Source: Sinorhizobium saheli (GTDB lineage Bacteria > Pseudomonadota > Alphaproteobacteria > Rhizobiales > Rhizobiaceae). From it: a stretch of 64,000 nt of DNA. This document shows positions 13,752-48,374 of this stretch, one piece after another. Below the pieces are notes generated by a model. That model saw only the letters and a program-made list of their open reading frames with translations, made no database searches and was not told where the DNA came from. Each line of letters starts with the position of its first letter. Within the stretch, counting starts at the first letter, position 1. The position numbers were made by a program, and so were the translations under genes. The DNA lies in contig NZ_LNQB01000102.1 of the NCBI RefSeq assembly GCF_001651875.1, positions 124,001-188,000 of the forward strand. The letters are read 5' to 3'.

Positions 13752-13868
13752 AGCCCTGCAGCGCGGCGCGTCCTGTCAGGGGCGCAAAGGTCGCTGCTGC
13801 ACTTTGAATTGCTGCATGTCCTTGTCCTTCATCGAGGCCGGTCGAAGGAGACATGCCGCAGTGCAGCC
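13752..13868 (+). repeat. RIME1-like repeat, copy 2, abutting prmA
   Basis: It contains GGCGCGTCCTGTCAGGGGCG, then CACTTTGAATTGCTGCATG, a short hairpin (TCCTTCATCGA..TCGAAGGA) and ACATGCCGCAGTG. It ends next to the prmA ribosome site and holds open the frame upstream of prmA, creating a false N-terminal extension from 13804. Confidence 0.75.
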
Positions 13869-13881
13869 GAAGGAAAGAATC

Positions 13882-14757
13882 TTGAGCGAGATACGCCTTT
13901 TCGTCACGACCACCGAGCGACGGGCCGCCGCCGTTCTCGATCTCCTGAGCACGGTCTTCGAAGACGAGGACTACGCGATCGCGACCATGGAGATCGACGA
14001 GAAGCGCGATGTCTGGGAAGCATCGGTCTACATGATGGCGAACGAAGAGGAGCAGGTGAAAGCGCGCCTTGCCGATGCGCTTGCGGCCGAGTTCTCCGAT
14101 CTTCCGATCGGCCGGGAGGTTCTGCCCGACATCGACTGGATCGCCAAATCCCTGGAGGGCCTCGCCCCGGTGCGCGCCGGCCGCTTCGTCGTGCATGGCT
14201 CGCACGATCGCGACAAGGTGAAGACCGGCGAGATCGCCATTGAGATCGATGCCGGCCAGGCCTTCGGCACCGGGCATCACGGCACCACCGCCGGCTGCCT
14301 CGAAATGCTCGCCTCGGCCACCAACGCGCGACGCTACCGCAACGTCCTCGACCTCGGCACGGGAAGCGGCGTGCTGGCGATCGCGGCCCGCAAGCTCCTG
14401 CACGTGCCGGTTCTGGCGACGGATATCGACCCGGTTGCGACCCGCGTCGCCGCCGACAACGCCCGCCGCAACGGCGTCGTGGCCGGCCTCACCTTCGCAA
14501 CCGCGCCCGGCTTCCACTCGACGGCGTTCAGGACACACGGCCCCTTCGACCTGATCATCGCCAATATCCTGGCGCGGCCGCTCATGAAGATGGCGCCGCA
14601 GCTCGTCGCCCATCTCGCGCCCGGAGGCTCCGTCATCCTCTCCGGCATTCTAGCCGAACAGCGCTGGAAGGTGCTCGCCGCCTATAACGGCCAGAACCTC
14701 AAGCATGTGCGCACCATCTGGCGCAATGGCTGGGTGACGATCTGCCTGACGAAATAG
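13882..14757 (+). CDS. prmA: Ribosomal protein L11 methyltransferase
   Basis: 291 aa. The TTG start at 13882 is chosen because AAGGAAAG lies five bases upstream and the product then begins MSEIRLFVTTTERRAAAVLD, as in rhizobial PrmA. A longer frame from 13804 reads through a RIME repeat and is rejected. PrmA trimethylates L11 with S-adenosylmethionine. Seen are the L11-recognition N-domain, a linker with GQAFGTGHHGTTAGCLE, the SAM motif VLDLGTGSGVLAIAARKL and the catalytic-loop IIANILARPL. Confidence 0.93.
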   Translation: MSEIRLFVTTTERRAAAVLDLLSTVFEDEDYAIATMEIDEKRDVWEASVYMMANEEEQVKARLADALAAEFSDLPIGREVLPDIDWIAKSLEGLAPVRAGRFVVHGSHDRDKVKTGEIAIEIDAGQAFGTGHHGTTAGCLEMLASATNARRYRNVLDLGTGSGVLAIAARKLLHVPVLATDIDPVATRVAADNARRNGVVAGLTFATAPGFHSTAFRTHGPFDLIIANILARPLMKMAPQLVAHLAPGGSVILSGILAEQRWKVLAAYNGQNLKHVRTIWRNGWVTICLTK

Positions 14758-14876: not shown

Positions 14877-14912
14877 AAAAGGCCGCCAGTCGATCATGAC
14901 GGGCGGCCTTTT
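14877..14912. terminator. Bidirectional terminator between prmA and the candidate sRNA
   Basis: AAAAGGCCGCC (14877-14887) pairs perfectly with GGCGGCCTTTT (14902-14912) around a 14-nt loop. A run of four T follows on either strand, so it can end prmA transcription (+) and back up the sRNA terminator (-). Confidence 0.75.
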
Positions 14913-14913
14913 C

Positions 14914-15115
14914 AAAACAAAGGCGATGCCGAAGCACCGCCCGCTGACCGGCTTGAGACCGGCCATGCCCGCGAGCCTGAGGAGGAGGAGCGCTCGAGCG
15001 GGCTTCTACCGTTCCGAAGCTGGCCACCCTTGAGGGAGGAGGAGAACAGATGACCAACCGTTCTCGGAACTGCAGTCCTTTGAACCACCGGGCGTTTGCC
15101 CGTGTTCGTTGGCCG
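14914..15115 (-). ncRNA. Candidate trans-acting sRNA with two anti-Shine-Dalgarno loops
   Basis: There is no gene here, but the minus strand folds as a classic small RNA. Hairpin 1 (15070 to 15011) pairs GUUCCGA/UCGGAAC and GUUGGUC/GGCCAGC and exposes UCUCCUCCUCCCU. Hairpin 2 (15003 to 14967) pairs GCCCGC/GCGGGC plus GAGC/GCUC and exposes GCUCCUCCUCCUCAG. A rho-independent terminator follows: GGCGGTGC-TTCG-GCATCGCC then TTTGTTTT (14941 to 14914). Loops with CCUCCUCCC are the hallmark of the rhizobial alpha-r14 (NfeR1-type) riboregulators, which pair with ribosome sites. The 5' end is uncertain: TTATAAG at about 15119-15125 is a possible -10, and the RNA may start nearer 15075. Confidence 0.7.
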
Positions 15116-15334
15116 CGCTTATAAACCATCATTTCAATAGATAAAGATGCATTGCAGCATGGGAGCCATGCGCATGATGCATAAGTATTACAATTACGCG
15201 GTTTTCGCGATGAAGACGCGATCGGAGCATAGCCGGCCGAGCCGAGGCAGGATGTCGCCTCTTTCCCGCGAAGCGACCTTTCCGCTAACATGCCTTCACT
15301 CACCTGCGGTTCTCGCCAGCTATCGGAAAAATAC
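15116..15334. promoter_or_regulatory. AT-rich divergent promoter region (sRNA, aminopeptidase)
   Basis: This is the AT-richest part of a 577-bp gene-free stretch (14758-15334). It includes ATAAACCATCATTTCAATAG and ATAAGTATTACAATTACGCG. It should hold the promoters for the minus-strand sRNA and the plus-strand aminopeptidase. No exact boxes can be assigned. Confidence 0.4.
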
Positions 15335-17170
15335 ATGTTTCAGTCATTCGAAGTCACTTCCACGCCCCAGTTCGGCAAGGAGCGCACCGCGGCGTTGCGC
15401 GCCGCCATCAAGCCTCTCGGCATCGACGGCTTCCTGGTGCCGCGCGCCGACGAGTTTCAGGGCGAGTATGTGCCCGCCTGCTCCGAGCGGCTCTCGTGGC
15501 TGACCGGCTTCACCGGTTCGGCCGGGGTCGCCCTCGTTACGCAGCGCGAAGCGATCGTCTTCGTCGACGGCCGTTACGTGACCCAGCTCAAGGAGCAGGT
15601 GGATGCAAGCGTCTTTACCGGCGGCGACCTCATCGGCGAGCCGCCGCATGTCTGGCTCGAAGCACATGCCCCCAAGGGGTTCCGCCTCGGCATAGACCCC
15701 TGGCTGCACACGGCTGCGGAAGTGCGCCGGCTTGAAAGAGCGCTCGCCGCGGTCGGCGGCGCCCTCGTCTTCCTCGAAAACAATCCGCTCGATCCGCTCT
15801 GGACCGACCGGCCCGCCGCTCCCCTCGGCCGGGTGACGATTCAGCCGATCGAGCACGCGGGACAATTGGCGAAGGACAAGATCGCCATGATCGCGGCGAG
15901 CACCGGCAAGGCGAAGGCCGCGGCCGTCGTCCTCACCGACCCCTCCTCCGTCGCCTGGGCCTTCAACATCCGCGGCAGCGACGTGCCGCATACGCCGCAC
16001 CCGCTGGCGCGCGCCGTCATCCACGCGAACGGCCGCGCCGAGATCTTCCTCGACAAGCGCAAGGCCGGCATCGAGGAAGAGGCCTATCTGACCCAGCTTG
16101 CCGACATCGCGCCCCCGGGGACCTTCGACGACCGGCTGGCCGTGCTCGCCTCCGCCGGTGCGGCGATCATGCTCGATCCGGATCTCGCCCCCTTCGCGAT
16201 CGGCGAACTGATCCGCGCCAGGGGCGGCTCACTGATCGAGGCCGCCGATCCGGCGCGCCTGGCCCGCGCCTGCAAGAATTCGGCCGAGATTGCCGGATCC
16301 GTCCGCGCACATCTGCAGGATGGTGCCGCGATGGTGGAGTTCCTGGCCTGGCTCGATCGGACGGAACCCGGCAGCGTCTCCGAAATCGGCGCGACAGAGC
16401 GGCTGGAGGCGGTGCGCGCGGCGGTCGGCGAGCGCATGCAGAATCCGTTGAGGGACATATCCTTCGACACCATCGCCGGCGCCGGGCCCCATGCGGCGAT
16501 CATGCATTATCGCGTGACCACGGCCACCGACCGGCCGATCGAAGCAGGCACCATGTTCCTGATCGATTCCGGCGCGCAATACATCAACGGCACGACCGAC
16601 ATCACCCGCACCGTCGCGGTCGGCGCCGTGCCCGAAGAGCAGAAGCGTTTCTTCACGTTGGTGCTGAAGGGAATGATCGCGATCAGCACGGCCCGTTTCC
16701 CCAAGGGCTCGCGCGGCGTCGACCTCGACCCGCTCGCCCGCATCGCGCTGTGGAAGGCGGGGGCCGACTATGCCCACGGCACCGGTCACGGCGTCGGCTC
16801 CTATCTCTCCGTGCACGAAGGACCGCAACGCATTGCCCGGCTAGCCGTCCAGAAACTGCTGCCCGGCATGATCCTTTCCAACGAGCCCGGCTACTATCGC
16901 CCCGGCGCCTTCGGCATCCGCATCGAGAATCTCGTCGTCGTAACGCCGGCGGCCGAGATCGCGGGCGGCGACCAGCCGATGCTCGGCTTCGACACGCTGA
17001 CCTTCTGCCCGATCGACCGCCGGCTCGTCCTCGCCGGCCTGCTGACGGATGACGAGCTTGCCTGGCTGAATGCCTATCATGCGCAAACGCGCGAAAAGCT
17101 CATGCCGCTGCTGGCCGACGACGCGACCCGCAGCTGGCTGACGGCCGCTACGGAAGCGATTGCACGCTGA
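15335..17170 (+). CDS. Xaa-Pro aminopeptidase (M24B family)
   Basis: 611 aa from MFQSFEVTSTPQFGKERT; 15 upstream in-frame codons look non-coding. Three-domain aminopeptidase P of the long (eukaryote-like XPNPEP) form: two creatinase-type N-terminal domains (FLVPRADEFQGEYVPACSER; PLGRVTIQPIEHAG) and a pita-bread catalytic domain. Metal ligands are visible in FLIDSGAQYINGTTDITRTV (two Asp), HGTGHGVGSYLSVHEGP (His), LSNEPGYY (Glu) and GIRIENLVVV (Glu). It removes N-terminal residues before proline. Cytoplasmic, with no signal peptide. Confidence 0.92.
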   Translation: MFQSFEVTSTPQFGKERTAALRAAIKPLGIDGFLVPRADEFQGEYVPACSERLSWLTGFTGSAGVALVTQREAIVFVDGRYVTQLKEQVDASVFTGGDLIGEPPHVWLEAHAPKGFRLGIDPWLHTAAEVRRLERALAAVGGALVFLENNPLDPLWTDRPAAPLGRVTIQPIEHAGQLAKDKIAMIAASTGKAKAAAVVLTDPSSVAWAFNIRGSDVPHTPHPLARAVIHANGRAEIFLDKRKAGIEEEAYLTQLADIAPPGTFDDRLAVLASAGAAIMLDPDLAPFAIGELIRARGGSLIEAADPARLARACKNSAEIAGSVRAHLQDGAAMVEFLAWLDRTEPGSVSEIGATERLEAVRAAVGERMQNPLRDISFDTIAGAGPHAAIMHYRVTTATDRPIEAGTMFLIDSGAQYINGTTDITRTVAVGAVPEEQKRFFTLVLKGMIAISTARFPKGSRGVDLDPLARIALWKAGADYAHGTGHGVGSYLSVHEGPQRIARLAVQKLLPGMILSNEPGYYRPGAFGIRIENLVVVTPAAEIAGGDQPMLGFDTLTFCPIDRRLVLAGLLTDDELAWLNAYHAQTREKLMPLLADDATRSWLTAATEAIAR

Positions 17171-47947: not shown

Positions 47948-47972
47948 GTTGATTCGACTTGAAAAAGAGAAA

Positions 47973-48374
47973 AGCCAGTTGGCCTGTAAGCCGGGTTCTG
48001 TATGGCTCCGCCTCGAGGGCGGAACGTGGCAGCCATTCATCTGGGACTGCGCTTGCGCGCAGCCTCGTGCAACCCACCCGGATGACGGGCCTGGAAACCG
48101 GCTGGGCGCTTGCACGCCCGTGTCATCCCTATTCGGTCTTGCTCCCGGTGGGGTTTACCGTGCCGTCCATGTTGCCATGTCCGCGGTGGGCTCTTACCCC
48201 ACCCTTTCACCCTTACTCCGCGAGCGGAGCGGTTTGCTTTCTGTGGCACTTTCCCTGGGGTCACCCCCGCCGGACGTTATCCGGCACCGTGTTTCCTTGG
48301 AGCCCGGACTTTCCTCACCCCGCGGCCTTTCGGCGCTTGCGGGGCGCGGCTGCCCGGCCAACTGGCAGAGGCTC
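47973..48374 (-). ncRNA. rnpB: RNase P catalytic RNA (class A)
   Basis: About 402 nt; the ends are approximate. Read on the minus strand it shows all main RNase P landmarks: the P1 strands CCAGTTGGCC and GGCCAACTGG at the two ends, GAGGAAAGTCCGGGCTCC (conserved region I), AAGGGTGAAAGGGTGGGGTA with AGAGCCCACC, the CCACAGAAAGCAAACC block, and ACAGAACCCGGCTTACAGG near the 3' end. It cleaves 5' leaders from tRNA precursors with the protein RnpA. Several open frames across it are artefacts. Confidence 0.96.

Follow-up and report, generated by a model that had tools for sequence, protein, structure and literature searches.

A conserved small RNA gene with two anti-Shine-Dalgarno loops between prmA and a pepP-like gene of Sinorhizobium

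The locus and its RNA

The window, a stretch of 64,000 nucleotides of Sinorhizobium saheli DNA, contains a small RNA (sRNA) gene on the minus strand between prmA and a pepP-like gene, which are both encoded on the plus strand (Table 1). The initial annotation had described two minus-strand hairpins with anti-Shine-Dalgarno (aSD) loops at 14914-15115, followed by a terminator with UUCG loop and U-run. These elements are present, and fold and positions agree: the minus strand of this segment folds with -91.2 kcal/mol (z = -3.21), and two of 200 dinucleotide shuffles were equally stable or better. In the ensemble fold, the mean unpaired probabilities are 0.98 for loop 1, 0.93 for loop 2, and 0.37 for the entire RNA. 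The two aSD hairpins and the terminator thus stand, but the list was incomplete as it lacked a small 5' hairpin, a plain third hairpin, and a second terminator. Similarly, the 3' end at 14914 holds while the 5' end is most likely at 15110 and not at 15115. We placed it 7-8 nt past the TATAAG element, considering also the transcript lengths known from S. meliloti; a sigma-70 consensus scan of the segment gave no promoter. Terminator 2 is symmetrical and therefore may also end the prmA transcripts of the opposite strand. In a scan of the 64-kb window with Rfam 15 at gathering scores the sRNA locus remained unmatched. The sole match in the window is the RNase P RNA at 47971-48365 on the minus strand, which served as position marker.

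Table 1. Features at the sRNA locus, in window coordinates.
Feature	Position	Strand	Remarks
sRNA gene, 197-nt form	14914..15110	-	ends at terminator 1; based on sequence, fold, and genus conservation
sRNA, longer form of 234 nt	to 14877	-	on read-through to terminator 2
aSD hairpin 1	15006..15075	-	loop motif CUCCUCCUCCC at 15044-15034
aSD hairpin 2	14967..15003	-	loop motif CUCCUCCUCCUC at 14990-14979; stem near-invariant among relatives
Plain third hairpin	14945..14965	-	missing in relatives L027, L029, and L030
Small 5' hairpin	about 15107-15082	-	additional to both aSD hairpins
Terminator 1	14914..14942	-	9-pair stem, 4-base UUCG loop, U-rich tail
Terminator 2	14877..14908	.	symmetrical; U run at 14880-14877; 37 nt past terminator 1
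-10 element TATAAG	15118..15123	-	conserved in genus
Operator GCATGGCTCCCATGC	15157..15171	-	begins at -61
prmA, ribosomal protein L11 methyltransferase	13804..14757	+	conserved neighbour
pepP-like M24 aminopeptidase gene	15335..17170	+	conserved neighbour

The probable S. meliloti counterpart and the family

If our mapping is right, the transcript is already known from the sister species S. meliloti, where the sRNA is the ortholog of SmelC531/sm26, and transcript, strand, and sizes are then taken from work by others. The assignment is based on the strand, the order of the genes, how far the RNA lies from RNase P, and the lengths of the transcripts. In S. meliloti 4H41 (locus L078) the element is located 35.8 kb before the RNase P RNA on the same strand. 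The RNase P intergenic region of S. meliloti 1021 spans 2356367-2357249 and the last U of sm26 is at 2321055 (PMC2573895), while SmelC531 is listed at 2321050-2321287 on the minus strand (PMC2873474). Combining this distance with the RNase P coordinates of 1021, the element falls at the listed place of sm26/SmelC531. The RNA was detected by Northern, microarray, and 454 sequencing in 2008-2010 (PMC2573895, PMC2873474). For sm26, two Northern bands of about 135 and 200 nt, microarray signals in the conditions coded A, C, O, and S, BLAST hits coded Sm, Re, and Rl, and a seemingly lower level in saturated cultures were reported (PMC2573895). The predicted L078 form of 195 nt to terminator 1 corresponds to the larger band, and the 234 nt to terminator 2 compare with 233 nt between the mapped 5' end and the last U. 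Strand, gene order, and RNase P distance are the same as well, all of these being comparisons to the published positions and lengths.

Two of the published data differ. The intergenic region of sm26 (IgR#7) is given as 1270 nt, whereas in L078 pepP and the HNH-like ORF are about 600 nt apart, and none of the predicted forms accounts for the band of about 135 nt. Compared to strict collinearity with S. meliloti 1021, the FMN riboswitch is displaced by about 1 kb, and the 5-kb stretch in which the tmRNA would then be expected gave no Rfam match. SmelC507, SmelC500, and SmelC549 were excluded as counterparts by their published positions, and the M. huakuii RNAs MH_s25 and MH_s15 (PMC5596092) were dropped on genus alone, the locus being one of Sinorhizobium/Ensifer. 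A literature search, with most subscription papers outside its scope, retrieved SmelC531/sm26 only in PMC2573895 and PMC2873474 and found no function for it.

A DNA search in 60 genomes found the segment in its own genome and in 31 of the 32 other genomes of the genus, the lone miss being a genome of 70% completeness (G009), and gave weak matches in two of the remaining 27. A 20-letter loop pattern retrieved 35 stretches from named genomes, of which 28 belong to Ensifer/Sinorhizobium, one to a 'Rhizobiales bacterium', and six to unrelated names. To look further, we used covariance models. R1, built on 24 genus sequences, matches 73 of 394 family genomes (19 of 109 genera), each with a single match. 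A second model, R2, built on 83 hits, reaches 94 of the 394, but 19 of those top out at 43.1 bits or less and are not counted as members, because some may be alpha-r14 RNAs. Second R2 matches in three genomes (G035, G067, and G413) sit away from the sRNA locus. In an order-wide draw of 397 genomes nine match, all within the same family; the family and order draws were filtered more strictly so that weak matches were lost. The 83 loci studied below comprise 18 of 30 genus loci (12 near copies omitted) and the 65 other loci of the 73 genomes matched by R1. Within flanks of about 1-1.5 kb, prmA adjoins 79 and pepP also 79 of these loci, with both neighbours present at 75, one only at 8, and neither at none. 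This synteny indicates one orthologous locus. Within the genus, conservation extends from the operator to the terminator, and a GGCG..CGCC..TTT-like terminator is found at most 110 nt from the core in 78/83 loci.

The structure is shared by the relatives. RNAalifold on a structure-blind alignment of 28 genus sequences predicted these hairpins again; of the 57 pairs, 4 show changes in both partners. In the alignment of the 83 loci (76 distinct rows), 96.2% of the cells pair, two-sided changes occur in 26 of 33 pairs, and the covariation score is 0.653 compared to 0.197 for shuffled and at most 0.106 for slid alignments; because this alignment was fitted to the R1 structure, it leans toward that structure. 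Two structure-blind alignments of 77 padded relatives let RNAalifold recover hairpin 2 but not hairpin 1. Therefore, we turned to single-sequence folds, which do not depend on any alignment. Here, the aSD lies inside a hairpin loop in both halves of the RNA in 76 of 76 distinct sequences each, and the fold z-score is -2 or lower for hairpin 1 in 71/76 and for hairpin 2 in 52/76 sequences (60 shuffles each). The initial annotation had regarded missing conservation in close relatives as an argument against such an RNA. Because stems and loops are kept, this objection does not arise. Of the two stems in which it suggested to look for compensatory changes, that of hairpin 1 covaries and that of hairpin 2 hardly varies in sequence.

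Family-wide, the shape of hairpin 1 is kept while its letters vary, and the stem of hairpin 2 (14967-15003) stays near-invariant in sequence. Such a stem would ask for a role beyond holding a loop, a point against the masking reading favoured below. A conserved stem sequence is what is expected of a protein-binding site, and aSD loops are generic. Thus, the RNA might be a sponge or mimic, its loops or hairpin 2 being occupied by a protein or competing with 16S rRNA instead of acting on single mRNAs. We regard this as very improbable since the related aSD RNAs that have been tested act on mRNA start regions (PMC10746234, PMC8844928).

Cis action, in which the transcript is antisense to the pepP leader or to the 3' end of prmA or interferes there, would fit the sRNA strand, which is opposite to both neighbours, as well as the symmetrical terminator common to the sRNA and prmA. 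In addition, SmelC531 is assigned to type 2 in the published table, and class (ii) of that paper denotes cis-encoded antisense RNAs (PMC2873474). However, cis action requires neither conserved aSD loops nor covarying stems, and the sRNA is kept in S. meliloti-like genomes despite an extra ORF separating it from prmA, so that we consider cis action to be a long shot. The extra ORF, labelled HNH-like by eye, is found in L078 (3273-3599, minus strand), L006, L009, and L013.

The operator and the relation to known aSD RNAs

Together with an upstream TGCA the operator forms TGCA-N6-GCAT at 15181-15168, a LysR-type T-N11-A box. The operator pattern GCATGGCWCCCATG is found with at most two mismatches within 420 nt upstream in 73 of the 83 loci but in only 1 of 166 control stretches. 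In 70 of the 73 operator-bearing loci TGC-N7-GCA, again a LysR-type T-N11-A box, is formed, and in all 73 a TATAA-like 5-mer (0-2 mismatches) follows 47-49 nt past the operator start. These analyses show the gene itself, that it is conserved and syntenic, how its relatives fold, and that the operator is conserved. In the own genome of 6 Mb, GCATGGCNNNCATGC is present in seven copies compared to none for the reversed control. One of these is the sRNA operator, one is located at an AbcR copy (L055), and five are elsewhere; at both the sRNA and L055 the distance to the RNA is 61 nt, counted for AbcR to the start of the Rfam match.

A LysR-type protein gene adjoins this AbcR copy, which belongs to an AbcR pair of the own genome. 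We take its product to be LsrB, because lsrB adjoins abcR1/2 in S. meliloti and partly because of the protein sequence. NCBIfam gave no name above cut-off for this protein among the best 25 of 55 families. The gene order in S. meliloti is documented (PMC8844928), and in that species LsrB drives AbcR1 through a site that spans -61 to -49 (PMC8844928) and NfeR1 via TGCA-N6-GCAT at about -72 (PMC10746234). By analogy, the sRNA operator is probably read by LsrB. The published LsrB consensus GCAT-N3-TG-N3-T is found exactly in none of the 73 operators, the window having GCATGGCTCCCAT, which is one letter off. LsrB control is thus a good guess and not a result.

Membership in the alpha-r14 family, which the initial annotation had brought up, is not borne out. 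The sRNA scores 14.1 bits with RF02344 (alpha-r14), for which the gathering score is 58.8, it is not one of the 11 matches that this model has in the own genome at E<=1, and it lacks a third aSD hairpin. Seven true alpha-r14 copies are located elsewhere in the genome. According to the published description, alpha-r14 RNAs consist of three hairpins, each bearing CCUCCUCCC (PMC10746234), whereas the sRNA has two aSD hairpins, with CCUCCUCCC in loop 1 and CCUCCUCCU in loop 2, and a plain UUCG terminator. Shared with NfeR1 are the aSD loops and the LysR-type TGCA-N6-GCAT box, which is at about -71 in the window. With RF02345 (alpha-r15/AbcR) there are four own-genome matches at E<=1, none of which is at the sRNA locus; AbcR RNAs also have two aSD motifs (PMC7143759) and the operator at the same -61 place but their hairpins are unlike those of the sRNA. 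RF02791 (CcsR, gathering score 65.3 bits) does not match the locus at E<=10. By the Rfam models, the sRNA is neither alpha-r14 nor AbcR nor CcsR.

The same loop motif and the similar operator type could also mean that the sRNA is a divergent alpha-r14 (cuckoo-type) paralog, derived from a three-loop ancestor by loss of the terminator aSD and still sharing the alpha-r14 targets. In relative L163 (genome G116) the terminator loop carries CCUCCUCCC as does hairpin 3 of alpha-r14, among 50 loci listed, and this locus reaches 39.3 bits with RF02344; it is also the only one of 20 relatives matched by RF02791 (22.3 bits). Further, R2 assigns up to 31.5 bits to alpha-r14 loci of the own genus, although the alignment is weak and mostly via the loops, and possibly nothing but the loop motif is shared. 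Given the low RF02344 score of the sRNA itself, the fact that only two of the 20 relatives scanned match RF02344 at E<=1, both under the cut-off, and the single copy at a fixed locus in contrast to the multicopy alpha-r14, such a descent seems unlikely. On contig C72 of the own genome (123143-124494; L043, L044, L176, and L177), tandem alpha-r14 copies adjoin two DUF1127 genes in a CIN1-like arrangement, and GCATGGGTGCGAT, an exact LsrB consensus, is found upstream of the first DUF1127 gene.

A small ORF in relatives and the probable mode of action

In 17 of the 83 loci, as judged by eye, an ORF of 46-57 codons lies between the promoter and the hairpins, and in many of these the final codons and the stop are within the 5' strand of hairpin 1. 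The operator (at most two mismatches) is present in 12 of these 17 loci compared to 61 of the 66 others. For eight small ORFs, dN is below dS in all 28 pairwise comparisons, and an AAGGA- or AAGGGA-like site precedes them. Pfam and NCBIfam left 15 small ORFs unnamed, none of which hit DUF1127 in Pfam. Compared by profile with five own DUF1127 proteins, the small ORFs reach a probability of 83% over 30 columns and may be called weakly DUF1127-like. When 75 loci, including 16 with ORF, are placed on a tree, the ORF state needs five changes, three of which are forced by well-supported branches, and such counts do not separate gain from loss. The small ORFs are, however, 37-98% identical to the first one. 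Because they look related to one another, we prefer repeated loss.

In these 17 relatives a single promoter is followed by a gene for a small basic protein and by the aSD hairpins, an arrangement that resembles the CcaF1-CcsR locus of Rhodobacter and the CIN1 loci. The differences are that there is no ORF in the window, that the ORF of the relatives is not called DUF1127 by Pfam, and that the sRNA has a LysR-type operator while CcaF1-CcsR is under a RpoHI/RpoHII promoter in Rhodobacter (PMC10253847). It could be that one orthologous, LysR-controlled locus has switched between an mRNA for a DUF1127-like protein that has two aSD hairpins at its 3' end and an aSD sRNA that stands alone, the Sinorhizobium RNA being a 3' UTR freed by several gene losses and the locus a second protein-plus-aSD-RNA unit beside CcaF1-CcsR. 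We propose this tentatively, at slightly less than even odds. The small ORF ahead of the hairpins in the relatives would also suit an RNA that in Sinorhizobium is just a small mRNA or the remnant of a 3' UTR and functionless itself. Given that the window contains no ORF between the promoter and hairpin 1, and that promoter, loops, and terminator nevertheless stay conserved, a functionless remnant is barely credible.

With a probability of roughly 70%, we favour a single-copy trans-acting sRNA, orthologous to SmelC531/sm26 and equipped with a LysR-type operator, whose aSD loops mask the Shine-Dalgarno sites of several mRNAs. We infer regulator, targets, and repression. The promoter with its LysR-type operator, probably under LsrB, would give rise to the 197-nt RNA, or to the longer form if terminator 1 is read through. 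The two stable hairpins would then expose their CU-rich loops, which may pair with GGAGG Shine-Dalgarno sites and so block the translation of several mRNAs. NfeR1 and AbcR1/2 repress through aSD loops in this way, acting on mRNA start regions (PMC10746234, PMC8844928), and by its anatomy this sRNA gene, which we regard as real, should act like them. A search for perfect 11-mer targets with AGGGAGGAGGA retrieved five hits including the sRNA locus itself, and four with the reversed control. Because the reversed control is also Shine-Dalgarno-like, we do not claim enrichment of targets. Three of the four other hits are located, by eye, 1-13 nt before reading frames of about at least 300 codons. 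At one of the hits, L193 on C98 of the own genome (27509-27519), AGGGAGGAGGA, which is fully complementary to loop 1, lies 4 nt before a frame of 428 codons whose product, by eye, resembles an ABC solute-binding protein.

An unexplained S. meliloti sRNA entry of 2008-2010 thus becomes a defined family that can be tested and in which operator, loops, and synteny are conserved. The relatives with the ORF allow testing, at a single locus, whether an sRNA arose from a 3' UTR. With AbcR and alpha-r14 also present, the sRNA would bring the kinds of aSD RNA in the cell to three, possibly all controlled by one LysR-type regulator, and one may ask how targets are shared out among RNAs whose loops are nearly identical.
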